This document shows positions 2,671 through 22,922 of a DNA stretch of 29,869 nt, one piece after another (the stretch's first letter is position 1; every line of letters begins with the position of its first letter). The notes under the pieces were generated by a model. That model saw only the letters and a program-made list of their open reading frames with translations, was not told where the DNA came from and ran no database searches. Position numbers and translations under genes: made by a program. The stretch covers positions 1 through 29,869 of IMG/VR virus record IMGVR_UViG_3300020183_000334. One strand, given 5' to 3'. Origin of the DNA: a virus.

Positions 2671-2890
2671 ACTTATCTTTATTATTTGCGCTTCTATAAT
2701 TGGATTCGTAGGATTAAACTTTGTTGCATGTAATTTTATGATTCCGGGAACAACAAATCATGCAAACCTTCTAGGTGGACTAAAAAATCCTCCACCAACA
2801 GATTGCAAAGAATCTGAAAGAAGAGGATTTGAAACTTTATTGACTATTTTAACTACGGTAATTGCACTAAGAACAAGGGTAGAAGATTAA
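2564..2890 (+). CDS. Small membrane protein, holin or spanin-like candidate
   Basis: A 108-residue protein. A strong ribosome-binding site (GAAGGAG) 8 bases before the ATG fixes the start. Residues 1-32 are charged, about 34-58 form a transmembrane helix (LIFIICASIIGFVGLNFVA), then comes a Pro/Gly-rich linker (LLGGLKNPPPTDCKESERRG) and a second hydrophobic stretch (LLTILTTVIALRT). It converges with the lysozyme gene, sharing stop-codon bases at 2887-2890. Two hydrophobic segments beside an endolysin suggest a lysis role, but this is inference from position. Confidence 0.75.
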   Translation: MKEEDRNQKDNQQKSLDSSKDQQNVVGKKHGSILNKLIFIICASIIGFVGLNFVACNFMIPGTTNHANLLGGLKNPPPTDCKESERRGFETLLTILTTVIALRTRVED

Positions 2891-3372
2891 GAACTCCAAA
2901 GTTTACCTTCGGCACCTCTTCTTCTTAACAATCCAACTTCAACATCAGTACCAGGATTACGGTACATCTTTAGAGTGTTGGGAACATTACTCCATTCTTT
3001 ATTTCTAAGAACTCTGCTTATAGTATTAAAACCGGAAGACCCGTAGAAACGAGCACCAAGATTATAAGCAAAAGAAAGAAGAGCTCCTTTTTGATTATCA
3101 TTCATCTCATTCCAGTATGGGATCTTTTGTAGGTGTGGTAGAAATCTTTGTTCAATATCAAACATTAACAAATCATCTGCTTCCACTTGACTAATTGTTT
3201 CTTTTAGATGAAATGGTTGTCCATTTCTCTTACGAGTAGAACCCCAACCAATAGTGATTGGAAGTCTTCCTGTAAGAGGATCTGGATATGCCTCTAAGTG
3301 ACAACCCTCAAACTCTTTGATTAAATCGACACCACACTGAGGAACTTGCGATGTCGATTCTACTTTTTTGCT
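2887..3372 (-). CDS. GH24 lysozyme module, reached by -1 frameshift from the C39 gene
   Basis: This frame encodes a complete GH24 (T4/P22-type) lysozyme that cleaves the peptidoglycan glycan backbone. The catalytic Glu lies in VDLIKEFEGCHLEAYPD, the Asp in YPD, and TIGWGST follows. The C-terminal half has the family pattern NDNQKGALLSFAYNLG and GLLRRRGAEGKLW. The frame is closed upstream by TGA at 3373-3375. Between that stop and the catalytic Glu there is no ATG, GTG or TTG, so it cannot start by itself with its active site. It overlaps the end of the C39-peptidase frame at an A AAA AAG site, so the likely product is a fusion of about 390 residues. A one-base homopolymer sequencing error, or a rare start codon such as ATC or ATT, are the alternatives. 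Confidence 0.85.
   Translation of the reverse strand, partial: SKKVESTSQVPQCGVDLIKEFEGCHLEAYPDPLTGRLPITIGWGSTRKRNGQPFHLKETISQVEADDLLMFDIEQRFLPHLQKIPYWNEMNDNQKGALLSFAYNLGARFYGSSGFNTISRVLRNKEWSNVPNTLKMYRNPGTDVEVGLLRRRGAEGKLWSS
3324..3369 (-). promoter_or_regulatory. Programmed -1 ribosomal frameshift signal (slippery site + hairpin)
   Basis: Minus-strand A AAA AAG (3369-3363) lies in the exact X XXY YYZ phase of the C39 frame (GCA AAA AAG TAG). Shifting back one base gives AAA AAA GTA GAA and enters the lysozyme frame. Three bases after the heptamer starts a 13-bp stem, AATCGACATCGCA paired with TGTGGTGTCGATT (3359-3347 with 3336-3324, two G-U pairs), around a 10-base loop. A GGGGAAG about 12 bases upstream could act as a dnaX-like internal Shine-Dalgarno. 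All three parts of the E. coli dnaX signal are therefore present. That it is used is inference. Confidence 0.8.
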
Positions 3373-4058
3373 TCAAATATTCTTCCCCACCCAGATTTAG
3401 GATCATCTGGAGTCCATCTCTTTTCAAGATCAGATCTCTTATAAACTGCACCTTTGCCATTAGTAACTGCACTAGTATATCCATCATTTAGGGAACCATA
3501 GGGATCATTCACAACATAATCATCACCTTTCTTACCAATCACAACTACCATGTGTCCACCCGTGGGGCGAGAAAGAGTCCCCCTATGAAGAATACCAATA
3601 ACAACAGGTCTTCCAGCGGCAAGCTCACGATCAAGATCAGCAAAAGAAAGATTGTAACTGAAGTGTGATTTGATACCGTAAGAGTCCAGAACTTTTGTCT
3701 GAACTGTGTGATCAGTCGTATCACCGACTGAGAATACTTTTCTAACATAGGCATCATCGCCTTTAGGTCCTACTAGAGTGCCAGGTTTGAAATACTCTAA
3801 ACACATAGCACAAGCAGAAGAATTACAGGTTCTTTGAGCATCTCTGTAATTATCTGTCTGTGGATAGAAAGGAACGTTGAGAACTCCTGGAATTGTTGGT
3901 TCTGCTTTTGTTCTGTAAATTCTTACCCAGTTTGCCGAGCCATCCATTAACTCTGGGCATTTATCTGCTAAGTCAACCTCAAGTTGCTCTACTGCAGCAA
4001 CATGTTTTGGATTTTTTTCGTCGTAATACTTGAAAAAATTATGGAGATCTATAAGCAT
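3360..4058 (-). CDS. C39-like papain-fold peptidase, N-terminal half of a lysis fusion
   Basis: 232 residues from the ATG at 4056-4058. A GTG at 4079 is also in frame but sits too close to the late promoter box at 4082-4089. It has the C39 (Peptidase_C39_2-like) triad pattern: Gln67 in NVPFYPQTDN, catalytic Cys78 in RTCNSSACAM, His169 in GGHMVVVIG and Asn184/Asp185 in VVNDPYG. The first 45 residues are a short helical region. Such domains cleave Gly-rich or peptidoglycan peptides. The zero-frame product ends FEAKK-stop right after the A AAA AAG site, so ribosomes would make this alone or, after -1 slippage, a C39-lysozyme fusion attacking both peptide and glycan bonds. Late transcribed. The peptide substrate is unknown. 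Confidence 0.85.
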   Translation of the reverse strand: MLIDLHNFFKYYDEKNPKHVAAVEQLEVDLADKCPELMDGSANWVRIYRTKAEPTIPGVLNVPFYPQTDNYRDAQRTCNSSACAMCLEYFKPGTLVGPKGDDAYVRKVFSVGDTTDHTVQTKVLDSYGIKSHFSYNLSFADLDRELAAGRPVVIGILHRGTLSRPTGGHMVVVIGKKGDDYVVNDPYGSLNDGYTSAVTNGKGAVYKRSDLEKRWTPDDPKSGWGRIFEAKK

Positions 4059-4081
4059 TATTGTATCCAAACCCTGCACTA

Positions 4082-4942: not shown

Positions 4943-5728
4943 TCATCCAATAATACTCTGTCTCCACTCTTCACTCATATTTACCATAATTGCTTCTGCT
5001 GCTTCTGGTGTTTCAGCGTATCCTTCATCAAGTAAGTGTGAGAGGATGATGTCGTAGAGGTCATATTCTTCATTTCTTGGATTTGGACCTTTCCACTGAT
5101 CCGTTTTTCCACCTCTAGTTCTCTTATCGTCTTTACGAATTGGAGACTGATAAAGATTTGATTTTTCGTCAGATGCTCCAGGTTTAGGAGTTCCTCTAGT
5201 TCTTCTCAACTGACCAAGTGTTTGCTTTTTACCTTTATCAGTTCTTACTGGTAAATCACGGAACTTGTGAGTGGATTTGTCTTTGCTCTTTGAAGCACTA
5301 GATTGTTCATCGTCAGTAGATTTCATATTACCATATCTAGCATAATCTTTATCTGTTGGAGATTTTGAAAGGTCTTCTACACCAGTTCTTTCTCTCTTTG
5401 CCCTGTTTTTTTCTGCTGGTGTATGCCCACTTTGAAGTGGATTTTTAGGGTCATTCCAAGGAACTTTTCCTTCCTTCATTTCTTCTGCTGCTTTTCTTTC
5501 TGCCTTCTTTTTTGCCAGTTCTGCTCCTCTTTTTCTTTTTTCTATAGTCTTTAGTTGACTGATATCTTTATTAGCAACACCTTTAACAAAAGCACCAACC
5601 AGAGATTTTACATTCTTCTTAGCATACTCGTTTGCTCTTTCAGGAGTATCTAATACTTCATCAAGTTGTTGATTTTTAACAACTTCCATATATGCTTCTT
5701 GAAGACTACGAAAATCTTGTGCGTCCAT
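4943..5728 (-). CDS. Lys/Arg/Glu-rich virion-associated candidate with LLDEGYA module
   Basis: 261 residues, mostly charged and low-complexity (ELAKKKAERKAAEEMKEG, long Lys/Arg/Ser/Asp stretches) and so probably disordered. The last 40 residues form a compact module (LYDIILSHLLDEGYAE...AIMVNMSEEWRQSIIG). The N-terminus MDAQDFRSLQEAYMEVV is a short helix. The 252-residue protein at 22164-22922 shares both the N-terminal helix pattern and the HLLDEGYA...IM..MSE.W.QSI module, so the two are paralogues. A late promoter at 5749-5756 suggests a virion role. No function is known to me. Confidence 0.85.
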   Translation of the reverse strand: MDAQDFRSLQEAYMEVVKNQQLDEVLDTPERANEYAKKNVKSLVGAFVKGVANKDISQLKTIEKRKRGAELAKKKAERKAAEEMKEGKVPWNDPKNPLQSGHTPAEKNRAKRERTGVEDLSKSPTDKDYARYGNMKSTDDEQSSASKSKDKSTHKFRDLPVRTDKGKKQTLGQLRRTRGTPKPGASDEKSNLYQSPIRKDDKRTRGGKTDQWKGPNPRNEEYDLYDIILSHLLDEGYAETPEAAEAIMVNMSEEWRQSIIG

Positions 5729-6503: not shown

Positions 6504-7970
6504 TTAGAACTTAAAGGTTGTTTGCAAAATTCCTCCCCAATTGGAAGAGTTACCAACAAGACGTTGGTTGTCACTACCGTAGATGATAGCAGGAGTGACG
6601 CTGATGTTATCAGACACTTGATACTTATAGAAGATCTCAAGCATCGTGGACTTCTCAAGGTTCTCGCCAGTAGGTGCCTGACCGATAGCAACACCAGCAG
6701 AGTTACCGTCAACAAACACATCATCCCAAGTCAGACCAGCAAACCAGGATTGACTGTTGGTGGCATCACTAGGAGTACCACTTACAGTATTCCAACCATA
6801 ACCTGCTGAGATCGAAGGAGCCCAACCAGATTGAGTGGGTTGCCAGTAAGCGTTGATAGCATAACCGTTAGAAGTTTGACCTGGAACCAGAGTGCCAGAA
6901 GCACCATTCAGACCGTTGTATGTGCGAACACGAGTGCCTTCGGTGCCATAACGATAACCAAATGCGATACCGTAGTTGTCACCACGATAACCGATCTGGG
7001 CTAGAGTGTTGAGAGCACCAGAGCGATCAAACTCACCTGTAGAACTATCAGCACCGTTTTGTGCCACATAGTTCACACCAGCAATCAGACCTTTGTTTCC
7101 GTACTGAATACCAAAACCTGAACCAACTGCCTTGTTATACACACCAGGAGCACCAGCTACTTGGAAGAAATCAAGGATCTTGGATTCATATGCTGAAGGA
7201 ATCCAAGCAATCTCAGTGTTACGAACCAGAGCACCAGCAGTAAGAGTGGTGCTACCGTTGAACACAGGGAACTGATAATACAGACGATCGATAACTACGT
7301 TATTACCGTTTTCACCTGTGGTATTGTCTGCTTTATCCAGTTTGAAGATAGACGAACTGGAACCGAAAGGATTGCTACTGAAGTTAGAAGAACGCAAACG
7401 AGTACGGAGCAAATCGGCACCAGTAAAAGAAGTATCCAGATTCAGACGAAGATCATAGTTAAATGCAGTGTGGATAATATCACCTTCTTTAGTTTGATAG
7501 TCATCCACACCACCAATCACAAAGTTTGCTTCACCACGCAGTTTAGTAGTGGTAGAGAACTGTTGTGCTTCGAGAGTAGTAACTTGTGCTTCCAGACCAT
7601 CAACACGACCCTTCAGAACTGCCAGTTCAGCAGCAAACTCTTTAGTAAGACGCTTGAGTTCATCGGTAACTTCAGTCACACGATCCAGACAAGCATTCAG
7701 AAGTGCTGCTGCCTCATAACGAGTCAAAGCACGACCACCACGGAAGGTGCCGTTGGGATAACCAGCAACGCAACCATAACGCTCTACAAGTTGCGAGAGT
7801 GCTTGATATGCCCAGTCAGTAGGTTGGACATCAGAAAATTGAGTGACGCTTGTAACCTGTTCGGAAGAATACTGGTTGACCCCATTCATATTAAGGTCTG
7901 CGGCCATCGCAGCAGGTGCAACCATTCCCAGAGCAACAGGTGCAAGCATCAGTTGTTGAAAGAATTTCAT
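6504..7970 (-). CDS. Cyanobacterial outer-membrane porin (SLH + OprB/SomA type)
   Basis: 488 residues from the ATG at 7968-7970. An upstream in-frame TTG at 8000 is unlikely because it would precede the signal peptide. Order: signal peptide 1-23 (ending APAAMA), SLH domain at about 44-100 (FSDVQPTDWAYQALSQLVER, TRYEAAALLNACLD) that binds the cell wall, a coiled coil at about 96-137, then an OprB-type beta-barrel of about 340 residues ending in Phe (TTFKF), the usual outer-membrane insertion signal. This is the layout of SomA/SomB porins of marine Synechococcus and related cyanobacteria. Base composition looks less AT-rich than the neighbours and a consensus-like promoter precedes it, both consistent with host origin. 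It may alter permeability or phage-receptor display; that is inference. Confidence 0.93.
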   Translation of the reverse strand: MKFFQQLMLAPVALGMVAPAAMAADLNMNGVNQYSSEQVTSVTQFSDVQPTDWAYQALSQLVERYGCVAGYPNGTFRGGRALTRYEAAALLNACLDRVTEVTDELKRLTKEFAAELAVLKGRVDGLEAQVTTLEAQQFSTTTKLRGEANFVIGGVDDYQTKEGDIIHTAFNYDLRLNLDTSFTGADLLRTRLRSSNFSSNPFGSSSSIFKLDKADNTTGENGNNVVIDRLYYQFPVFNGSTTLTAGALVRNTEIAWIPSAYESKILDFFQVAGAPGVYNKAVGSGFGIQYGNKGLIAGVNYVAQNGADSSTGEFDRSGALNTLAQIGYRGDNYGIAFGYRYGTEGTRVRTYNGLNGASGTLVPGQTSNGYAINAYWQPTQSGWAPSISAGYGWNTVSGTPSDATNSQSWFAGLTWDDVFVDGNSAGVAIGQAPTGENLEKSTMLEIFYKYQVSDNISVTPAIIYGSDNQRLVGNSSNWGGILQTTFKF

Positions 7971-8038
7971 AGATTGTTGTTTGTTTGTACTATAGGACAA
8001 AGATTAAGAATTACAACAGAATTCTTAAGTACTTATTT

Positions 8039-8067
8039 AGTATAAGGGATGACTTTAAGAGTGTCAA
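8039..8067 (-). promoter_or_regulatory. Sigma70-type promoter of the porin
   Basis: Minus strand TTGACA (8067-8062), 17-base spacer, TATACT (8044-8039). The TGA inside the -35 box is the stop codon of the preceding glycosyltransferase gene. Confidence 0.88.
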
Positions 8068-8852
8068 GTGTTTACGGTACTTTCTATCACCCTTCCAAGA
8101 TAAGGATCGTAATCCATTAACTCCTCTACAGATAGTTGAGCTCCTTTCTGACTCCAGAAGTTCATTTGACCATCATAGTTACCACGATGGAATGCATCAA
8201 TATGTTCTGGATGAATAGAAGAACCCAACTCAATCCTATAAAGAAGAAGAGGAACACTATAAGTATTACCTGAATTATAAATTAAGTCATCAGCAACAGG
8301 ACGAGGTTTTACACCATTATCGAGTTTATACTTATCTCCTCTTGTATGAAGATTTAAAAGTTTCTGGGCATGATGACGAGTAATAATATAACAAGCAGTT
8401 GAAAATTCATTCACAAATCTCTTGTGAACTTTAATATGAATATCTCCTGTACAAATAATAGCAATCTGAACTACATCCCAATCATAGGGGATCCGACAAT
8501 AAAAATCATCCCAAGTAAAGTTCCAATACTTAACAAGATCTAAGTTACAATCATCTTCCATGATGACAGCATAAGGACTATCAGAAGTTTCGTACCAATG
8601 TTTGATAGCCTTGAGATGAGAAGTAACACATCCAATCTCACCAGAAGACATCATCTCAGGATAACGTCCTTTGATGATGTCGCTCAGATCATCTTCTCTA
8701 CCATCATATGCAGAAATACGAGTATAGTTCTCAATTTCCCAGTACTTAAACTGGTTTTCCATATACTCTCTTCTCTCTGGTTGTCCATCCAGATTGAGAT
8801 AGTAGATTGGTCCAAAGTTCTTAAGTTTAAATACTGACTTATTTTTATCCAT
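8064..8852 (-). CDS. GT25-like glycosyltransferase
   Basis: 262 residues from the ATG at 8850-8852, which overlaps the preceding stop; an in-frame GTG at 8870 is possible. It has the GT25 (LPS galactosyl/glucosyl-transferase, LgtB/Lex2B-like) layout: the nucleotide-sugar strand YYLNLDGQPERREYM, the motif SSGEIGCVTSHLKAI, then the acidic metal site YAVIMEDDCNLD. A later ITRHHAQKLL segment also fits the family. It would transfer a sugar to a glycan acceptor in the cytoplasm. It is the last gene of the glycan operon; its stop is built into the porin promoter. Sugar and acceptor are unknown. Confidence 0.85.
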   Translation of the reverse strand: MDKNKSVFKLKNFGPIYYLNLDGQPERREYMENQFKYWEIENYTRISAYDGREDDLSDIIKGRYPEMMSSGEIGCVTSHLKAIKHWYETSDSPYAVIMEDDCNLDLVKYWNFTWDDFYCRIPYDWDVVQIAIICTGDIHIKVHKRFVNEFSTACYIITRHHAQKLLNLHTRGDKYKLDNGVKPRPVADDLIYNSGNTYSVPLLLYRIELGSSIHPEHIDAFHRGNYDGQMNFWSQKGAQLSVEELMDYDPYLGRVIESTVNT

Positions 8853-9609
8853 GATTGTAGACAAATCCACCCATTTGACTAATATGTTTTTGATTCATCA
8901 ACAGACTAATACCTAAGAACTTAACTGGAGCATCACCCCATCTCTTAGTATAAAAACCACCTGTCTTATCCAGGTAATTATAAAACTCCATGTAACCACT
9001 TGTCAAGAACCATGAAACTTTTCCAAGTTCAAAGTTGGTATAGAACATCAAATTTTCTGGAAGATCATTTGGAATATACTCATTTACAGTCTCCCAAAGA
9101 CCTTCAACTACTTTTGGATTATCCTCTTCAACTTTTATAAATCCATAATAGATATCATTTTGTTTTGCGAGTTCAAAGATATCATATGGTATTCTTGTAG
9201 TAATATAAGAATCGGTATCCAATCTTAAATAGTAATCATAGTTTTTAAGTATATCATATCCATACATGTGTCCAGAAAAGAATCTACACATGTGACGATA
9301 CCCAATAGGAAATCCAGGATGACCCCAACCAATAGGACCATCACCATGAGTTGGATGAGGAAAGAATTCTGGAATTTGATTCAGGATTTCTTGAGGATAG
9401 TCTGGAATATTAAACTCTATAGTTTGGTAATTTAGTGTTAACTTAGTATTAACCTTTGACTTATATTCTTCAAATGATGGTTCACAGAAAACAATAATAT
9501 CAAAATCACTAGTTGTTGGTACTACATTCTCCTCAACCAATGATAATGATCTATTAAAATTTTCAACATCTTCTTCAGAAGATCTAACAAGATAAACTAT
9601 ACAATTCAT
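8845..9609 (-). CDS. GT15-like (KRE2/MNT1-type) glycosyltransferase
   Basis: 254 residues from the ATG at 9607-9609 (ATGA overlap with the upstream gene); a TTG at 9624 is less likely. Motifs match the fungal GT15 alpha-1,2-mannosyltransferase family: GYRHMCRFFSGHMYGYDILK at about 103-122, NYDYYLRLDTDSY (metal/nucleotide site, DTD where fungi have EPD), FYTNFELGKVSWF with the family's catalytic-region Glu, and GGFYTKRWGDAPV at 217-229. Fungal enzymes use GDP-mannose in the Golgi; here no signal or membrane anchor is seen, so it would act in the cytoplasm. GDP-sugar use fits the GDP-mannose epimerase in the same operon. Donor and linkage are inferred. Confidence 0.82.
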   Translation of the reverse strand: MNCIVYLVRSSEEDVENFNRSLSLVEENVVPTTSDFDIIVFCEPSFEEYKSKVNTKLTLNYQTIEFNIPDYPQEILNQIPEFFPHPTHGDGPIGWGHPGFPIGYRHMCRFFSGHMYGYDILKNYDYYLRLDTDSYITTRIPYDIFELAKQNDIYYGFIKVEEDNPKVVEGLWETVNEYIPNDLPENLMFYTNFELGKVSWFLTSGYMEFYNYLDKTGGFYTKRWGDAPVKFLGISLLMNQKHISQMGGFVYNHG

Positions 9610-10310
9610 AAGTATTTTTCCCAATTAATTACAGGAGATTGTAAATGATCACAATGTGTGGCATATCCAGGAATAGATGTGATCAATCTCTTTCCAATAT
9701 TTCCTAGATGTACAAACTTAGCATGATCCATCGATATACCATCAGGTGATGCATCACTATAATGTTTATGAATTGAATAATCTTCTTTTAGAGTTCCAAC
9801 TTTTGCAGCGTATGTGTTACAAGTAGAAGGAGCAGTTCTCCAATGAACCGATTTACTCACCAATATTTTTGATACTAGATTATCATATCCACTATCGATG
9901 TACTTATCTAAGTGATCATATAGAGAGATGTAATGGGTTGGTAAAGTAAATCCTTCCATCAAGATTTCACACCATCCAGGCTGATGTAAATAATCATCTT
10001 CCAAGAAGTAAATGATAGTGTCATCAGAAAAGTTTTTCTCTAAAGCAATATCTACAGTACGAGAAAAACTTCCAGCTTCATATCCGAAGTTTATGATCTC
10101 TACATTTTCCTCATTTTTTAAAAACGTATCAGAGATTGAACCAAACTTTTCATCATATACTATCGTATAATCAGCAAGTTCTGGATTAATAGTTCTCTTA
10201 AAGTTTTCAAAGAGTTTGATCTTATCAAACCACTCGGGTCTATGTCTGTTAGGGAGAGCACTGTTTGGAGAATAATAACAGTGCCTCATGAATACTTGAA
10301 TGGGTTTCAT
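9606..10310 (-). CDS. GT-A-type glycosyltransferase, family uncertain
   Basis: 234 residues from the ATG at 10308-10310, with an ATGA overlap with the epimerase stop. The core reads DTIIYFLEDDYLHQPGWCEI, an acidic EDD metal-binding motif like that of GT2/GT-A enzymes, preceded by GYEAGSFSRTVDIAL. The C-terminal half has TAPSTCNTYAAKVGTL and SMDHAKFVHLG. The start codon choice rests on the coupling overlap. It lies between an epimerase and the GT15-like gene in the same operon. I cannot assign a CAZy family, donor or acceptor. Confidence 0.75.
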   Translation of the reverse strand: MKPIQVFMRHCYYSPNSALPNRHRPEWFDKIKLFENFKRTINPELADYTIVYDEKFGSISDTFLKNEENVEIINFGYEAGSFSRTVDIALEKNFSDDTIIYFLEDDYLHQPGWCEILMEGFTLPTHYISLYDHLDKYIDSGYDNLVSKILVSKSVHWRTAPSTCNTYAAKVGTLKEDYSIHKHYSDASPDGISMDHAKFVHLGNIGKRLITSIPGYATHCDHLQSPVINWEKYL

Positions 10311-11296
10311 TTCCAATAATCGTAAATGTCTTTAGTTACTTCATATTCCATATCTTTCACTTTCCTATTCGGTTGTTTCATTGCCCACTCAAACATACTA
10401 TCAATTAGAGGTTCTAGTTCTGTTTGATCAGAAAAATTCAACAAACTCTTTGCCTTAGTATGATCGCAGTAAGCATGTTTTACTTCGTGTCTTGATTCAC
10501 CATGTTCAATGGTTGCATTGTATCCATACTTAGATGCAACTCTTACTACTGTTTCTGCTGCTTCGTTAATGGTAAAGTATTTGTCTGCGCCAATATTAAA
10601 TATTTCTCCATCATAATCTGTAAGAAGTTTATCAAATGGTTCCATGTAATATTTGATGTCCGAAAAAGCACGAGTCTGTTCACCATCTCCATATACTAGA
10701 AGAGGTTGACCAGTAATTGCCTTACGAATAAAAATACCGATTACATTACGATATCTATCCCAAATGTTTTGATATTTGCCAAGAACATTATGAGGTCTGA
10801 CAATATTATACTTTAGTCCAAACTGATCTCCAGCAAGTTTCAAATCTACTTCCACAGAGTACTTTGCCACCCCATAAGGATCTACAGGTTGTGGTCTTAA
10901 CTCTTCTGTAAACGGTGGTTGCTGTTCACCATATACAGCCATACTTGAAGTAAAGACTAGTTTGGAATCATGATTAATACATTCATTAATGATATTGGCA
11001 GAACAAATTACATTGTTCCTGTAATTATAATTACGAATAAATGGAGAAAGTCCTTCAGCAGCATATGCAGCAAAGTGATACACTACGTCAGGATTTTCTT
11101 CTTCAAATATTTCTTTTACCTTTTTCCTATTCTCAAGATTAACTTTATAGAATTTTAGATTATCATTCTTTGGAAGAAATGCTTTATATCCACCAGAAAA
11201 ATTATCAATACCTATGACAGTATGACCGTTCTCCAAAAGATATCTTGAATAGTTTGCTCCGAGAAGACCTGCAGTTCCAGTTACTAATACTTTCAT
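10307..11296 (-). CDS. NAD-dependent nucleotide-sugar epimerase (extended SDR)
   Basis: 329 residues with an extended short-chain dehydrogenase fold. The NAD-binding Gly motif is TGTAGLLGANYSRYLLENG at 7-25, followed by GIDNFSGG, the HFAAYAA segment, the catalytic SSMAVYG Ser, and Tyr/Lys in PYGVAKYSVE. VYGDGEQTRAFSDIKYY is the substrate-side motif usual in UDP-glucose 4-epimerase-like enzymes. It probably interconverts an NDP-hexose, most simply UDP-Glc to UDP-Gal, supplying a donor to the operon's transferases. The substrate cannot be fixed from sequence alone. The ATG at 11294-11296 is two bases from the upstream stop. Confidence 0.85.
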   Translation of the reverse strand: MKVLVTGTAGLLGANYSRYLLENGHTVIGIDNFSGGYKAFLPKNDNLKFYKVNLENRKKVKEIFEEENPDVVYHFAAYAAEGLSPFIRNYNYRNNVICSANIINECINHDSKLVFTSSMAVYGEQQPPFTEELRPQPVDPYGVAKYSVEVDLKLAGDQFGLKYNIVRPHNVLGKYQNIWDRYRNVIGIFIRKAITGQPLLVYGDGEQTRAFSDIKYYMEPFDKLLTDYDGEIFNIGADKYFTINEAAETVVRVASKYGYNATIEHGESRHEVKHAYCDHTKAKSLLNFSDQTELEPLIDSMFEWAMKQPNRKVKDMEYEVTKDIYDYWK

Positions 11297-11297
11297 A

Positions 11298-12005
11298 TCA
11301 AGTATATTTTAATGACATTAATTCTTGAGTGTTTAAAAAGTTTTTACCATGCCAACCAAAGTGTTTTGTTTTGTCAAAATACTCTCGTTCATTCCAAGAC
11401 TTACCAAATTCGATACATGGATTCTCATAAGCAAATTTTACAGCAAGTTCAAAAGGTGCAAACTTAATTCCATATTCAATTGCTTCATAATACTTTCTTG
11501 TGCAAAGAAAACTATCTTCACCCAATCCATTACAAGAATCGAATTGAGAAGAGAACTCAAGAAACTTTCTACTTCTCAAACAAAACCCACCATTTCCAAC
11601 TCTATTCTTAGGAAAAACTTCTCTCATCAATGACTGTTGATCTTCATGTTGGAGAGAAACCCAGCTCTCTTCCGATGGCCAAGGAGCTCCAATATAATCA
11701 TAATTTAAAAACTCATCATCCCAAAGATCTGGATTGACAATATGACCATCATCTTGAATTAAAAGAACATAATCATTGTCAGTATGATCGATTAGGCTCA
11801 ACACATAATCATTATATTGATACCAATCAAGTTTGTCAATCAAATGTAGTTCTATATTATCAACATCTACATCTTGATGAGTAATTAAAATACTTTTACC
11901 AAAATTAAAATACTTTTGACAGTAATTTATAGCAACTGCTGATTGATAGGGATCTACACAGTTGATAGAAATTAAATCAACGTTTGGAAGTTCTCTTTTT
12001 TTCAT
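11298..12005 (-). CDS. DUF5672-like glycosyltransferase
   Basis: 235 residues. It contains NDYVLLIQDDGHIVNPDLWD (acidic DD metal site), then NYDYIGAPWP and RVGNGGFCLRSRKFLEF, the hallmark pair of the DUF5672 family of predicted glycosyltransferases. GLGEDSFLCT supplies a further acidic site. It overlaps the methyltransferase gene by 29 bases, so translation is probably coupled. Role: predicted cytoplasmic sugar transfer in surface-glycan assembly; donor and acceptor unknown. Confidence 0.8.
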   Translation of the reverse strand: MKKRELPNVDLISINCVDPYQSAVAINYCQKYFNFGKSILITHQDVDVDNIELHLIDKLDWYQYNDYVLSLIDHTDNDYVLLIQDDGHIVNPDLWDDEFLNYDYIGAPWPSEESWVSLQHEDQQSLMREVFPKNRVGNGGFCLRSRKFLEFSSQFDSCNGLGEDSFLCTRKYYEAIEYGIKFAPFELAVKFAYENPCIEFGKSWNEREYFDKTKHFGWHGKNFLNTQELMSLKYT

Positions 12006-12597
12006 CTTTAGTCCACGTCAAATAAGCACAACTAGCACCATGAAATCCAGAAATAGATCCACCAGGATAAATCTTTACTTCCGATTCTGGGAACTGTTCA
12101 CGGAAAAAATCTGCACTAAAACTATGAGGATGTTCGTTGTTTGTTGCAGTATCAATAGGTTCAAAAACTCTAATAGTTTTTGCAATCTTTTTAGCATTTG
12201 AGATCTGAAGTTGAGGATCTCTCACATGTTGAAGAACATTAAAGAACCAAACTTCATCAAATTTTGTCCTTCCCTTATAGTCTTCAAATCCAATAGAAGT
12301 ACACTCTACATTTGCATTCTTAAAATTTTCTTTTACATTTTCGGGGAAGTTATCAAAGTTTGGTTCAACTGAAACAGCTTTAGATAGTCCCGTCACATGA
12401 AAGACTGAAGGATAAGCACCACCACCAACTTCCAATACCTTTTTACCTACCAAATCATTTTCAAGATCAAGATTAAAATGATCTCGAAGAATAATCATGG
12501 ATGTTCTTTTATAGTTTTCATCATTTCCATAATCATAATGATTAAGTTCTCCTGATTTAGCTTGTTCCCATCTTTCTTGACTAATTGGTTCAACCAT
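11977..12597 (-). CDS. Class I SAM-dependent methyltransferase
   Basis: 206 residues. Motif I is VGKKVLEVGGGAYPSVF at about 52-68, motif II the acidic VSVEPNF, and the later WFFNVLQHVRDP matches the post-II region of small-molecule methyltransferases (Methyltransf_11/23-like). LVGKKVLEVGGGA replaces the usual D-x-G-x-G with EVGGG. It sits in the glycan operon between a DUF5672-like and a GT2 gene, so an O-methylation or capping of a sugar is the simplest guess. Overlaps with both neighbours suggest coupled translation. The substrate is not determinable here. Confidence 0.82.
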   Translation of the reverse strand: MVEPISQERWEQAKSGELNHYDYGNDENYKRTSMIILRDHFNLDLENDLVGKKVLEVGGGAYPSVFHVTGLSKAVSVEPNFDNFPENVKENFKNANVECTSIGFEDYKGRTKFDEVWFFNVLQHVRDPQLQISNAKKIAKTIRVFEPIDTATNNEHPHSFSADFFREQFPESEVKIYPGGSISGFHGASCAYLTWTKDEKKRTSKR

Positions 12598-13405
12598 CTG
12601 GTAATCTCCTATCTTCTTTTTGGCATGACATATTTAATAAGTCTTTGTGTCTTTCATAAAATATTTTCATATTTTTATGATTTGCTTTCAGTAACCAAGG
12701 AGCTGGGGATCCAGAAACTCTGGTTCCACCCCATTCATCCTTAGACTCAAAATCAATCCAATAACATCCACAAACTTTATCAAGTTCTTTATGCATTCTA
12801 TACATTAGATCATGATCATCCATATCTTGAGGTGAAAATTCTTCATCAAGATAATTCAGTTTTTTCAAATCCTCATGATTAATCATTAATGGACCACGAT
12901 TTACTGAAGAACGAACTGCAAATATATCCCTTGAAATATTCGATCTATCTGCATGATTAGTATGTATACAGATATCGCACCAACAATCATCAAGATCTTC
13001 TTTCATACCCAAATGTTTTGTATCTGGATTGAATTCCCAATCATGAGCAGTTCTTGAGGTTACGGCAAATACATCATCAAAGGCATCAAATGGTGTTTGC
13101 ATTCTGAGATTCCAACCATCTTCTTTGATAATCATATCATCTTGAACAATGATTACATACTCTCCAGATGCACTTTTCAATCCAACATTGTTTGCTTTAG
13201 TTTCATATACATCTGGAGTGGTTGCTATGGTAACATCATGACTTTTTCCGTAAAAGTAATCTTCTACGATATCAAAAGACTTATCAGTACAACCATCAAG
13301 AACTACGATCAGTTCATACTTACCCCTGGTGTTTTTTGTAATTCCATCAAGGACTTGTTGAACCAACCACTCTTTATTATGAATCGTTAAGATAATACTA
13401 TGCAT
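12590..13405 (-). CDS. GT2-family glycosyltransferase
   Basis: 271 residues with a GT-A fold of the GT2 type: the opening strand MHSIILTIHNKEWLVQQVLD, ELIVVLDGCTDKSFD for nucleotide binding, NNVGLKSASGEYVIIVQDDM with the QDD metal motif, and an acceptor-side QDMDDHDLMYRMHK segment. It would transfer one sugar to a growing glycan in the cytoplasm or at the inner membrane; no transmembrane segment is present. It overlaps the upstream gene by 8 bases and the methyltransferase by 8. Donor and linkage unknown. Confidence 0.88.
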   Translation of the reverse strand: MHSIILTIHNKEWLVQQVLDGITKNTRGKYELIVVLDGCTDKSFDIVEDYFYGKSHDVTIATTPDVYETKANNVGLKSASGEYVIIVQDDMIIKEDGWNLRMQTPFDAFDDVFAVTSRTAHDWEFNPDTKHLGMKEDLDDCWCDICIHTNHADRSNISRDIFAVRSSVNRGPLMINHEDLKKLNYLDEEFSPQDMDDHDLMYRMHKELDKVCGCYWIDFESKDEWGGTRVSGSPAPWLLKANHKNMKIFYERHKDLLNMSCQKEDRRLPDG

Positions 13406-14135
13406 CTCGTATCTCTACTAAAAACTTATCGATGTCCCTACCTAAATTGGAACTAGGATATCTATCGTACCAATAATCATAGTCACATTCAATAAAGTTT
13501 CGAAACTCATTATCACTTACACTTAATCCTTCTCGAATAGCAATATTTGTAAGAATACTTTGATCATTACGATGTTCCTTAAATGTAGCAAGTTCTTCAC
13601 CCAAAGTACTTGGATCATTTTTAATGATCCTAGAATCTAAGCAAAATTTCATCCAATCGGAAATGATATTGATTGATTGTTCTGTTGCTTTCCAAACTTG
13701 AACACCAGCTTCTAATTGGTTTGAGTTCCAATAATCATCCTCATCACAACCCATTAGAATAAAACAATCTCTCTTAGTATAGTCTTTATTTTTATTATTT
13801 CCTAAAAGAAGAAGACAAAACTCATCATCACTGAGAGTATTCTCAACATATGTTTTTACGTTTGGGGAAATCATATCTCCACAGTCACAGTAGATTACAT
13901 AATCATTTTCTTCAACCTTAGAGAGTGCATGAAGAATCACATATGGTTTCCATGCCCACCAACCACCTCCACACTCTTCATCCAAAAGACTCTGATTGTC
14001 TTTATAAAAATCCGTGGAAACTAACCATTCTCTATCATAAGAAATAATATTAAAATTTTCAGAATGAACTTTTTCTAAAAATTTCTGTTGATCTTCAAAC
14101 TTATCATCAGCATAATTTACCAAATGCCAGGTCAT
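13398..14135 (-). CDS. Predicted glycosyltransferase (GT-A-like, CDCGD motif)
   Basis: 245 residues. It has GGGWWAWKPYVILHALSKV followed by NDYVIYCDCGDMI, where CDCGD occupies the place of the GT-A DxD metal motif. A later QVWKATEQSINIISDWMKFC and a C-terminal HRNDQSILTNIA (Asp/Gln) are typical of capsule and LPS transferases of this kind. The WWAWKPY plus CDxGD pair is seen in predicted polysaccharide transferases. I cannot give a CAZy number with confidence. It overlaps both neighbouring genes (8 and 4 bases) inside the operon. Confidence 0.75.
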   Translation of the reverse strand: MTWHLVNYADDKFEDQQKFLEKVHSENFNIISYDREWLVSTDFYKDNQSLLDEECGGGWWAWKPYVILHALSKVEENDYVIYCDCGDMISPNVKTYVENTLSDDEFCLLLLGNNKNKDYTKRDCFILMGCDEDDYWNSNQLEAGVQVWKATEQSINIISDWMKFCLDSRIIKNDPSTLGEELATFKEHRNDQSILTNIAIREGLSVSDNEFRNFIECDYDYWYDRYPSSNLGRDIDKFLVEIRDA

Positions 14136-15004
14136 TTTAATTTCTCCTTCACATACTCTTGATTCTCATAATACTCTATAACTTCTTCTTTTGAAAGACT
14201 CTTTAAGTATTCCCACAACTCATTATTTTTTTGCATAAAAGGATTATTAAACCAAGAGTTTTCAGTTCTCTTATGCTCTAAGTGATATGCATGACTATCT
14301 ACTCTACCAACATTATATCCCAAAAGTTTCCATCTATGATGTCTTTCTACATCTTCTGGAGCATATGCAATAAAGTTTTCATTCTCTAAGTATCCCTTCT
14401 TATAAACTTCCGTTTTAAAGAACTGAACCATTCCATACTCAGCCCAACCTATTCCATTTACATTCTGAGCATATCCATAATACTCATCAAGAACTTTTGG
14501 ATCAAATTGATCAATAAACTTCTTGACAAAAGGATCTCTGAAAAAATTATTCAAATCATCTTCATCTTCAACCTTCGTTTTAGGAAATACTTTTCTTTCA
14601 CTATACTCACCAAACTTATAAGGATATACTACATCATACTCTCCAGAATCAATCATCTCCTTTGCTTTGACATATGAACTGATCGGTAAAACGATATCAG
14701 TATCATAGTTTACTACAATATCGGTTTCTGACATCAAGACCATTTCATTGAGAAGTCTTGTTCTATGAAAATGATCATCGTGATTTTCTTCAAAGATATA
14801 CTTTAGATTCCTAGTATCACAGATAGAGTTAATCTTTGGAAATGCCCAAGCATTAAACTTAGACATTTCATCAGATTCTTTGATGATAATTTTGCAATTG
14901 AATTTATTCAGAAGAAAAGAAGTGACCAGAATAATATTTCTAAGTCTATCATCAGTATCAATCCTCAAAGGAATGATAAAGGTTACATTACTAAGATCAA
15001 TCAT
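14132..15004 (-). CDS. Glycosyltransferase with galactosyltransferase-like C-terminal part
   Basis: 290 residues. The N-terminal half opens VTFIIPLRIDTDDRLRNI as in GT2-like enzymes and carries the metal motif NYDTDIVLP at about 99-107. The C-terminal half has NVNGIGWAEYGMVQFF and YAPEDVERHHRWKLLGYNV, the E-D-x-E...R pattern of the glycosyltransferase C-terminal (GT7/GT27-like) domain, then YHLEHKR. It would be cytoplasmic. It overlaps the fucosyltransferase-like gene and the next gene by 4 bases each. Sugar and acceptor are unknown. Confidence 0.82.
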   Translation of the reverse strand: MIDLSNVTFIIPLRIDTDDRLRNIILVTSFLLNKFNCKIIIKESDEMSKFNAWAFPKINSICDTRNLKYIFEENHDDHFHRTRLLNEMVLMSETDIVVNYDTDIVLPISSYVKAKEMIDSGEYDVVYPYKFGEYSERKVFPKTKVEDEDDLNNFFRDPFVKKFIDQFDPKVLDEYYGYAQNVNGIGWAEYGMVQFFKTEVYKKGYLENENFIAYAPEDVERHHRWKLLGYNVGRVDSHAYHLEHKRTENSWFNNPFMQKNNELWEYLKSLSKEEVIEYYENQEYVKEKLK

Positions 15005-15798
15005 ATCTTAATCCACCTCTCAGGAACTAAATCTTTTACATCATTCTGTTCACTCAGTGGAGGACCAAACCATCTATTTGGAGCAATAACTTTTTTACTA
15101 TCAGATAACCAAGCTCCCCACCAACTAAAAGAACTATTTGCAATAATGTGATAATCACAAAGAGTCATTAAGCACATATCAAATAGATTACTATTACCTT
15201 GAGAAACATAGAATCTATCGGATGAAAAAATATTCTGACTAAGAGCCCACTTAGGATCATCTGTAAAGATGATCACTGGAATATTAGAATCGACCATAGA
15301 CAGTGCTTGTTGATAATACTCCAGAGGACAACAACCGTGCCAAGGTTGATTTACATAATCACCTCTTCTTACATGAAGAGAGATAACCTTCTCACTATCA
15401 ATTGAGTTTCGATACTCTTTTGCTACAGAAAGAATATTATCTTTGAAGGTAAAATCTTTTTTTACCTCATCAGAAATATCTTGAAAATATTTCTCTGTTT
15501 GAAAGTATCCAAATAGATCTACATCATCTGGACACTTTTCATAAAGTTCCTGGTTAAAGTGGAAGTGACCTTCCTCTACTCTTTTATCTGTTTGATTGAC
15601 TCGAATATTTTCTTTTGGAAGACTAGAAAGTTCAAATCCTTCAAAGAGTTGATGATCGTGCCATGGATCATTAAAATCACTCGGAGGAATAGTAAACTCA
15701 TATCCATGTTTGGTTGATATGGATTTTAATGTTGCGTACTGGAACATCTGGTTTCCAAGTCTTCCATGATGTCCTAGAAGATTAAAACTAATAGTCAT
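15001..15798 (-). CDS. GT11 alpha-1,2-fucosyltransferase-like enzyme
   Basis: 265 residues with the GT11 signature set: LLGHHGRLGNQMFQYATLKS at 7-26, SLHVRRGDYV (the H-x-R-R-x-D donor motif), FTDDPKWAL, and ANSSFSWWGAWLSDSKKVIAPNRWF near the C-terminus. GT11 enzymes move L-fucose from GDP-L-fucose to a galactose. The window has no recognisable GDP-fucose synthase, but the gene directly upstream, overlapping by 4 bases, is a GDP-mannose 3,5-epimerase making GDP-L-galactose, a close structural analogue. L-galactose transfer is therefore a good alternative; that is inference. Confidence 0.9.
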   Translation of the reverse strand: MTISFNLLGHHGRLGNQMFQYATLKSISTKHGYEFTIPPSDFNDPWHDHQLFEGFELSSLPKENIRVNQTDKRVEEGHFHFNQELYEKCPDDVDLFGYFQTEKYFQDISDEVKKDFTFKDNILSVAKEYRNSIDSEKVISLHVRRGDYVNQPWHGCCPLEYYQQALSMVDSNIPVIIFTDDPKWALSQNIFSSDRFYVSQGNSNLFDMCLMTLCDYHIIANSSFSWWGAWLSDSKKVIAPNRWFGPPLSEQNDVKDLVPERWIKI

Positions 15799-16841
15799 TT
15801 TTGAAGTTGTTCCTTAATCCAGAAATAAGTTTTACGAATACCTTCTTCGAGGGTCTGTTCATAATCCCAACCCAACTTCTCACGAATCAGATCATTATTG
15901 GAGTTACGACCACGAACACCAAGAGGTGCATCAAGTTTATGTTGACGTTTAACAGGAACTCCAGCAACCTTAGAAACAGTATCGACAAGTTGATTGATAG
16001 TTACCATTTCCTCAGATCCAATATTGACTGGACCGATGAAGTTAGAATCCATCATACGACGAGTTGCTTCAATACATTCATCAATGAAGAGGAAGGAACG
16101 TGTCTGTTCACCATCACCCCATACTTCGATTGTTCCACCAACCTCAGGAAGTTCTGCTACTTTCCTACAAATAGCCGCAGGTGCTTTTTCCCTACCACCA
16201 GTCCAAGTTCCTTCTGGTCCGAAAATATTGTGGTATCGAGCAACACGTACAGGAATACCATAGTTGCGATGATAAGCAAAATACAGACGTTCTGAAAAGA
16301 GTTTTTCCCAACCATATTCGGAATCTGGGTTAGCAGGATATGCGGACTCTTCACGACAATCGGGATTGTCTGGATCAAGTTGATTGTGCTTTGGATACAT
16401 GCAAGCAGATCCAGAATAGAAGATCTTGGTTACATTCTTACCAAGAAAATCATTAAACTTTCTTACAGACTCAAGAACATTCAGGTTAATTGACACTGAG
16501 TTGTGCATAATATCTGCATCATTTTCTCCAGTAAATACGAAACCTGCTCCACCCATATCAGCAGCAAACTGATATACTTCATCAAATGCCTGAAGATATC
16601 GTGATGGAACAAAGTTATAGAAGTTACCACGATCACCTTTGTATTGAATGACTCTTTCTACAAAGGCAACATCTCTCAGGTCTCCAATAATAAACTCATT
16701 TGCTTCAGTCTTTGAGAACTCAGGATACTTGAGATCCACACCGCGAACCCAATAACCTTCTGCTCGCAGTCTTTTGACCATGTGACTTCCAATAAAACCA
16801 CCAGCACCAAGCACAAGTGCTTTCTTTACATATTGACTCAT
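15795..16841 (-). CDS. GDP-mannose 3,5-epimerase-like (extended SDR)
   Basis: 348 residues. NAD motif LGAGGFIGSHMVKRLRAEGY at 11-30. Motifs follow the plant GDP-mannose 3,5-epimerase (GME) closely: FAADMGGAGFV at 92-102, SGSACMYPK with the acid/base Cys147, YGWEK (Tyr176, Lys180), RYHNIFGPEGTW, GGREKAPAAICRK with Lys219, VWGDGEQTRSFLFIDECIEA, VNIGSEEM and GVRGRNSNN. GME converts GDP-D-mannose to GDP-L-galactose or GDP-L-gulose in the cytoplasm. All catalytic residues I know of are kept. It is the first gene of the eleven-gene glycan operon, 28 bases after the promoter's -10 box, and overlaps the GT11 gene by 4 bases. Confidence 0.9.
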   Translation of the reverse strand: MSQYVKKALVLGAGGFIGSHMVKRLRAEGYWVRGVDLKYPEFSKTEANEFIIGDLRDVAFVERVIQYKGDRGNFYNFVPSRYLQAFDEVYQFAADMGGAGFVFTGENDADIMHNSVSINLNVLESVRKFNDFLGKNVTKIFYSGSACMYPKHNQLDPDNPDCREESAYPANPDSEYGWEKLFSERLYFAYHRNYGIPVRVARYHNIFGPEGTWTGGREKAPAAICRKVAELPEVGGTIEVWGDGEQTRSFLFIDECIEATRRMMDSNFIGPVNIGSEEMVTINQLVDTVSKVAGVPVKRQHKLDAPLGVRGRNSNNDLIREKLGWDYEQTLEEGIRKTYFWIKEQLQK

Positions 16842-20809: not shown

Positions 20810-21172
20810 TCAGACCCGTGAGTAACAGATTCTGGCAACTCCTTGACTTGGTGAAGCAATAGAAGAGAATGCGCCATAGGACAAGTCAAGGTCCCTACCA
20901 GCAATGTAAGGTCCACGATCATTAACTCGCACAATCACCGACTTACCATTTGATTGATTCGTCACTCTCAATTTCGTTCCAAATGGTAGCGTTTTATGTG
21001 CTACAGAATTTCCATAAGCATTGTATCTTTCGCCATTAGCAGTTGTCTGCCCGTGATATCCATCACCTACTCCATAATGTGATGCGAGGGAACATCCGCT
21101 CGCTGCCTTTGCCTGAAGGGGTGCCAGTCCTGTAATAGCAATGGCAAGAATTGAAATTGTTTTGAAAAGCAT
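20810..21172 (-). CDS. RlpA-like double-psi beta-barrel protein, secreted
   Basis: 120 residues from the ATG at 21170-21172; the in-frame codons upstream would put a charged tail before the signal peptide. Signal peptide MLFKTISILAIAITGLAPLQ with cleavage after AKA. The mature part is one RlpA-type double-psi barrel: ASHYGVGDGYHGQTTANGER, HKTLPFGTKLRVTN, VRVNDRGPYIAGRDLDLSYG with the conserved D-R-G-P-Y and Asp. Bacterial RlpA is a lytic transglycosylase on denuded glycan strands. The SPOR domain is absent. It may weaken the wall for lysis or act in exit; whether it is catalytic is not shown. Confidence 0.9.
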   Translation of the reverse strand: MLFKTISILAIAITGLAPLQAKAASGCSLASHYGVGDGYHGQTTANGERYNAYGNSVAHKTLPFGTKLRVTNQSNGKSVIVRVNDRGPYIAGRDLDLSYGAFSSIASPSQGVARICYSRV

Positions 21173-21276
21173 TAAAATTAGTTGAACTCTACATCCGTAT
21201 AGAAAGGGGGTCCACCCTTTTCTCAAAGGGCACTTTCCACGGCTCTAAATCGAAATCAAAGTCTCATAACAAAAAA

Positions 21277-22163: not shown

Positions 22164-22922
22164 TTATCCGTTTTTGAATGTTCCTGGTATATCTTTGAAT
22201 GATTTTATTTTATAGTAAGGATCATTTCTTTGTTTATCATAGTATGCATTAAATTTTGCTTCTTGATCTTGAGCGGCTTGTTTTCTCATCAATCCAACAG
22301 GACCTCTTACACCAGCAGCACGTGCTTGATTTACAGTATCACGATACTTTTCTCTAGATGCTAAACGATCTCTAACAGCATCAGATGGAGTAGATCCTGA
22401 TGATTTTCCTGAAGAGGATGATGAAGATGCTGGTTTAGCTGCCACATTCTTCTTTCCGAGTGAGATGACTTGATCTTTAGTCATACCAGTTGCCTTCATC
22501 TTTGCATTACCACCACCAGCTGCAAAATCATCCATCTCAAGGATACTTTGTTTCCAACCCTCACTCATACTTGCCATGATCGCAAAAGCTGATCTTTCAT
22601 CACTAGCATATCCCTCGTCTAGAAGATGATTCTTAACTATTTCAAACGGATCGTAGGAGTTCATTTGTAATTGCCTCTGTTGGGATCTTTGAGTGGCTGC
22701 TTTTAAATCTTGTTGTACTCTCTTTTGTTCAGGAACTTGACCCGAACCATTTCTGTTCGGTGCCATTCTTCCACTATACTTATATCCAGGAGCTTGAGAT
22801 CCAGGTCTATTAAATGAATGTTGGAGATTTTTTTCAGCCGAAGCTGCTGATTTAGCCTCATCATACTCATTTATGATATTTGAATATAATTTCTGCAGTT
22901 CAGAATATTCTCTAGTATTCAT
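22164..22922 (-). CDS. Virion-associated candidate, paralogue of the 4943-5728 gene
   Basis: 252 residues. The N-terminal helix MNTREYSELQKLYSNIINEY is followed by Ala/Ser/Gln-rich disordered sequence, then the module YDPFEIVKNHLLDEGYASDE with AIMASMSEGWKQSI at about 90-131, matching the C-terminus of the 261-residue protein. After it come a Gly/Lys segment, a Ser-rich linker (ASSSSSSGKSSGS) and a basic Gln-rich tail. An exact TATAAATA late promoter lies 22 bases upstream. The shared module and late control suggest capsid assembly or virion packaging; function unknown. Confidence 0.85.
   Translation of the reverse strand: MNTREYSELQKLYSNIINEYDEAKSAASAEKNLQHSFNRPGSQAPGYKYSGRMAPNRNGSGQVPEQKRVQQDLKAATQRSQQRQLQMNSYDPFEIVKNHLLDEGYASDERSAFAIMASMSEGWKQSILEMDDFAAGGGNAKMKATGMTKDQVISLGKKNVAAKPASSSSSSGKSSGSTPSDAVRDRLASREKYRDTVNQARAAGVRGPVGLMRKQAAQDQEAKFNAYYDKQRNDPYYKIKSFKDIPGTFKNG

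Follow-up and report, generated by a model that had tools for sequence, protein, structure and literature searches.

A conserved A AAA AAG cassette between C39 peptidase and GH24 lysozyme frames of cyanophages, a very probable programmed -1 ribosomal frameshift

We analysed a stretch of viral DNA of 29,869 nucleotides (hereafter the window), in which a peptidase gene and a lysozyme frame meet on the minus strand. The locus contains the following features.

3360-4058, minus strand: 0-frame open reading frame of a C39-type (papain-like) cysteine peptidase, 232 aa, with ATG at 4058 and stop TAG at 3362-3360
3382-3388, minus strand: Shine-Dalgarno (SD)-like GGGGAAG, 12 nt 5′ of the heptamer, probably incidental
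3373-3375, minus strand: TGA closing the -1 frame 5′ of the heptamer, derived from TTT GAA (Phe-Glu)
3363-3369, minus strand: slippery heptamer AAAAAAG in the phase A AAA AAG, in the context GCA AAA AAG TAG that ends the C39 frame
3323-3360, minus strand: hairpin GAATCGACATCGCA-(10 nt)-TGTGGTGTCGATTT, 13-14 bp stem and 10-nt loop, a candidate stimulator
2887-3363, minus strand: -1 frame with the GH24 lysozyme domain, 158 aa after the predicted slip, stop TAA at 2889-2887

The peptidase frame has an alternative in-frame start, a GTG at 4079, and most homologues align from the ATG at 4058. The -1 frame is open from the TGA at 3375-3373 to the TAA at 2889-2887 and contains zero ATG, GTG or TTG codons before the catalytic Glu of the lysozyme, the first such codon being a GTG at 3186, past the catalytic region. 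Coordinates and frame reading agree on this point with an initial annotation of the window, which had described a lysozyme frame closed by the TGA and devoid of a start before that residue. The heptamer, of the type X XXY YYZ, sits in the 0 frame within the overlap of the two frames, a phasing that the same annotation had claimed and that we confirm. The 13-bp stem with a 10-base loop that it had placed just past the heptamer is also found; it has 13 pairs and an additional G-U, folds at -17.0 kcal/mol and begins 2-3 nt after the heptamer. Translation of the predicted slip product gives 390 aa, with a junction that reads ...FEAKK/VESTSQ...

Both proposed domains were recovered with Pfam, with Peptidase_C39_2 (PF13529) in the first half (E=2.7e-13) and Phage_lysozyme (PF00959) in the second half (E=1.3e-20; 74.4 bits against a cut-off of 22.3). 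The GH24 part is homologous to solved GH24 enzymes (9kbq, 8b2s and others). For the peptidase we found both a profile match and papain-like catalytic residues, the Q, C, H and D of the papain-like site being invariant in 118 of 118 C39 relatives. A PDB sequence search with the C39 domain returned nothing meaningful, but a fold search with its AlphaFold model (pLDDT 78.9) did find matches, namely the C39-like peptidase 3erv (probability 1.0, TM 0.49-0.56) and, in the PCAT1 transporter, the peptidase domain. The fusion with a lysozyme suggests that the C39 domain would cut peptidoglycan peptides. Furthermore, a match to phrog_3617 (E=3.7e-99) covers both halves, indicating that in-frame fusions of C39 and GH24 exist elsewhere.

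Codon choice at the end of the peptidase gene was followed in IMG/VR with a codon-blind search, in which the amino acids W-G-R-(I/L)-F-(D/E)-(A/V)-K-K-stop were fixed and all synonymous codons were permitted. We found G(C/T)A AAA AAG in 88 of 88 distinct gene ends, a count that is inflated by shared ancestry since the relatives are non-independent. Within 300 nt upstream, the same genes use 252 AAA and 278 AAG codons for lysine (about 50:50), and the background use of GCA for alanine and GTA for valine is 19% and 27%, respectively. These 88 sequences have diverged in their stems, linkers and upstream codons. These comparisons indicate a heptamer conserved beyond coding need.

In a first locus set, 105 of the 127 distinct junctions classified have the lysozyme in the -1 phase together with the AAAAAAG heptamer (A6G). 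A larger locus set, dereplicated at 95% protein identity before classification, comprises 83 A6G junctions, 12 in-frame fusions, 9 start-overlap junctions, 6 A6G junctions with an overlapping start, and two each of T8 junctions, in-frame fusions with A6G, in-frame fusions with A7 and separate genes. As in the window, 38 of 76 representatives lack any ATG, GTG or TTG before the catalytic Glu. The cultured phage S-PM2 (NC_006820) reads GCA AAA AAG TAA; it too has a hairpin and encodes its lysozyme in the -1 frame. The comparison of the A6 tract and stop across homologues, which the initial annotation had put forward as a check, thus returned a conserved heptamer, a usable lysozyme start that is mostly absent and the same arrangement in S-PM2.

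A strong hairpin was observed in nearly all of 104 distinct A6G junctions, mostly beginning 0-8 nt past the heptamer, with stems that are unrelated between lineages (CGACATC/GGTGTCG, GCCAACTAA/TTAGTTGGC, CTCTACT/AGTAGAG and GTTCTATTC/GAATAGAAC). The hairpin adjoining the heptamer reaches -9 kcal/mol or better in 80 of the 83 dereplicated loci (median -14.8), and its stability exceeds that of recodings synonymous in the lysozyme frame (mean z -1.54, negative in 72 of 76 representatives). The mean folding energy of 45-nt segments is -11.0 at the junction versus -3.1 to -9.3 at positions sampled within about 300 nt on either side, and the same scan gave no energy dip at the junction of in-frame fusions. 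Across 16 sequences closely related to the window, the 13 pairs of the stem are 90.9% paired, compared with 27-53% for slid partners, and 14 double-change cells were counted versus 4.4 in shuffles. Collectively, these results point to a downstream RNA structure a few nt past the heptamer that is conserved with covariation. Because all 88 gene ends keep the heptamer and hairpins of differing sequence recur, the window cassette is, judged from sequence, far beyond chance.

The initial annotation had also proposed GGGGAAG, about 12 bases upstream, as a Shine-Dalgarno stimulator. The motif is present at 3388-3382, but across 76 relatives it shows no excess strength over synonymous recodings (-6.32 versus -6.13), and its Gly codon has no bias to GGA or GGG. 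It was rejected as a selected stimulator on this synonymous null; being no stronger than recodings, it is probably a side effect of the W-G-R codons being conserved. Accordingly, the analogy with E. coli dnaX drawn earlier holds for the heptamer and the downstream hairpin and is not supported for the upstream Shine-Dalgarno.

The frameshift reading of the initial annotation is supported, and we consider it very probable that the C39-GH24 cassette constitutes an A AAA AAG -1 programmed ribosomal frameshift of canonical type, making a C39-GH24 fusion as well as a stand-alone peptidase. Ribosomes would translate the C39 peptidase and some would terminate at the stop after A AAA AAG, releasing the stand-alone peptidase. 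In a fraction slowed by the hairpin, tRNA-Lys would slip from AAA/AAG to AAA/AAA and reading would resume at GTA in the -1 frame, yielding the 390-aa fusion, an endolysin predicted to cut both peptide and glycan. Slippage and its efficiency, the production of both proteins, at the set ratio that the initial annotation proposed for infected cells, and a role of the fusion in lysis are what we infer from these sequences. The lysozyme of this large Synechococcus-virus group is apparently made only by -1 slippage at AAAAAAG with its hairpin.

Phage_lysozyme (GH24) has one match in the complete genome of S-PM2 and one in that of S-CAM7, in each case behind the junction, so lysis may depend on ribosomal slippage in these phages. 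Among the 43 tRNAs of Synechococcus WH7803, the host of S-PM2, there is one tRNA-Lys gene, and its anticodon is UUU. In E. coli, a single tRNA-Lys(UUU) underlies the slipperiness of A AAA AAG. In database records the cassette is listed as two unrelated or truncated genes. The annotated “putative lysin” of S-PM2 (S-PM2p157, L081 2476-2694) is 72 aa long, starts 93 codons past the slip site and is without the catalytic region (Glu, Asp and Thr are missing), and the database lysin gene of S-CAM7 (L083 2253-2525) is likewise truncated. Both genes are apparently truncated since annotators began at an internal codon after the frameshift was missed.

Other genes of the window, all on the minus strand unless stated, were noted alongside. 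A full-length cyanobacterial-type SLH/OprB porin gene of 498 aa (6504-8000; PF04966 and PF00395) has about 60% identity to Cyanobium porins and 67% to the annotated porin of phage S-SRM01, the only phage with a full-length porin among the phage records searched. At 20810-21226 lies the gene of a small RlpA-like (DPBB_1) protein that probably carries a signal peptide, and in both S-PM2 and S-SZBM1 the vicinity of the C39 gene includes genes annotated “lipoprotein precursor” or “rare lipoprotein A”; the RlpA-like protein is a possible further lysis or cell-wall factor. Two proteins, at 4943-5728 and at 22164-22922 (minus strand), share a similar segment, LLDEGYA...A..IM..MSE.W.QSI, near low-complexity sequence, and neither has a PHROG or Pfam match. 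At 8064-16841, about 12 ORFs resemble by eye glycosyltransferases, sugar epimerases and methyltransferases, suggestive of a surface-glycan module.

We regard as improbable that the fusion arises instead by transcriptional slippage, in which RNA polymerase would add one A to the A6 run, the A7 mRNA then encoding a plain in-frame fusion. Natural A7 DNA variants give exactly such a fusion and persist: they are rare (L250, and the group L257/258/260/261 assembled in four metagenomes), their lysozyme is read straight through, and these two lineages indicate that a plain fusion is tolerated. The alternative of five or seven A raised by the initial annotation is therefore found in relatives as A7, in the form of rare in-frame fusions. 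A polymerase slip site would, however, favour longer runs and would need neither the codon phase nor a hairpin 2-8 nt downstream, whereas the run of the frameshift class is fixed at six A in the strict A AAA AAG phase, ends in AAG and is almost never longer.

Separate production of the lysozyme, by termination-reinitiation after the C39 stop from a non-standard start codon, is more improbable still. Several relatives do use an ATG or GTG that overlaps the C39 stop (L004-L008, L032, L062 and L082), so coupling is workable in this C39-GH24 family. Against it stand the missing start codons before the catalytic Glu, in the window and in those 38 representatives, and the loss of the hairpin wherever a start overlaps the C39 stop. 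Indeed, hairpin energies reach only -2.9 to -8.9 kcal/mol in the 6 dereplicated A6G loci that gained such an ATG or GTG (including S-SRM01), an association in the expected direction that comprises only 2 independent contrasts on the C39 tree. As the hairpin is lost where an overlapping start appears, frameshift and start-overlap look like alternative states. In the start-overlap class (L004, L019, L029 and relatives) the C39 stop overlaps the ATG as TCATGA or AAATGA, and the lysozyme has roughly 40-50 additional N-terminal residues.

A sequencing error at the junction homopolymer or a decaying gene has a negligible probability, because cultured S-PM2 likewise has six A, as do dozens of contigs from independent metagenome assemblies, which rules out such an error for the family, and because the lysozyme frame stays open and conserved.

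With programmed frameshifting as the preferred reading, the junction takes further forms. S-CAM7 and two relatives read GTT TTT TTT CCA CAG TAG. Their T8 run contains a correctly phased T heptamer, the -1 frame encodes the lysozyme, and a hairpin of 13 bp (-16.7 kcal/mol) lies 5 nt downstream; on the C39 tree this lineage falls among in-frame fusions, apart from the A6G clade. ACG-2014f (and others) carries the same two domains as an in-frame fusion, which retains GCA AAA AAG TCT GA and a GGAGGG/CCCTCC hairpin in 10 of 10 sequences read. A -1 slip at this site would truncate the fusion to the peptidase, and conservation of the heptamer/hairpin block is no higher than in the rest of the gene. 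S-CREM1 (L085, 1495-2676) has both domains in one frame in reversed order, lysozyme first and C39 second. We hypothesize, as a rather unlikely possibility, that frameshift efficiency is an adjustable lysis control: peptidase and fusion would be needed in a set ratio, so that the junction re-evolves recoding (A6G, T8), with the polarity reversed in ACG-2014f as in dnaX.

Taken together, the cassette appears to be a recoding site that is widely conserved among cyanophages of marine and fresh waters and has gone unannotated. Where it is missed, current records are wrong, as for the 72-aa “putative lysin” of S-PM2. One gene pair is joined in several ways, by frameshift with two slippery sites, in-frame fusion, start-stop overlap, as separate genes or in reversed order, and this variety offers a good natural experiment for asking why recoding persists.

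Among known systems, the -1 frameshift of E. coli dnaX uses A AAA AAG with a hairpin 6 nt downstream and an SD-like element 10 nt upstream (PMC11162774, in which Tsuchihashi and Brown 1992 is the work cited for the slipperiness of A AAA AAG in E. coli). The cyanophage cassette shares with it the identical heptamer and phase, a downstream hairpin at similar distance and a host with a single tRNA-Lys(UUU). Unlike the dnaX shift, which truncates the protein, the cyanophage shift would extend it, has no selected upstream SD and concerns another gene in another host group.

To our knowledge, a frameshifted phage lysin has one precedent, that of a Lactococcus phage, cited 1994. PMC10885494 includes it in a list of genes with a known frameshift. 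By this description it resembles the cyanophage case as a phage lysin reported as encoded by two overlapping frames; phage and host are unrelated. No report of a cyanophage lysin frameshift was found in the open-access literature, a scope in which absence carries little weight. Several of the tail assembly chaperone frameshifts (lambda G/GT type) of tailed phages use AAAAAAG (PMC3483164). These are likewise phage -1 shifts that append a domain to a fraction of the products, and some share the heptamer, whereas the cyanophage product is a lysis enzyme. The fusions of phrog_3617 and ACG-2014f share both domains and their order with the cassette and are homologous over the whole length, but they have one open frame and need no -1 shift. 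Compared with these systems, the cassette itself is a textbook -1 frameshift signal, its gene setting is new and its conservation is unusually broad.
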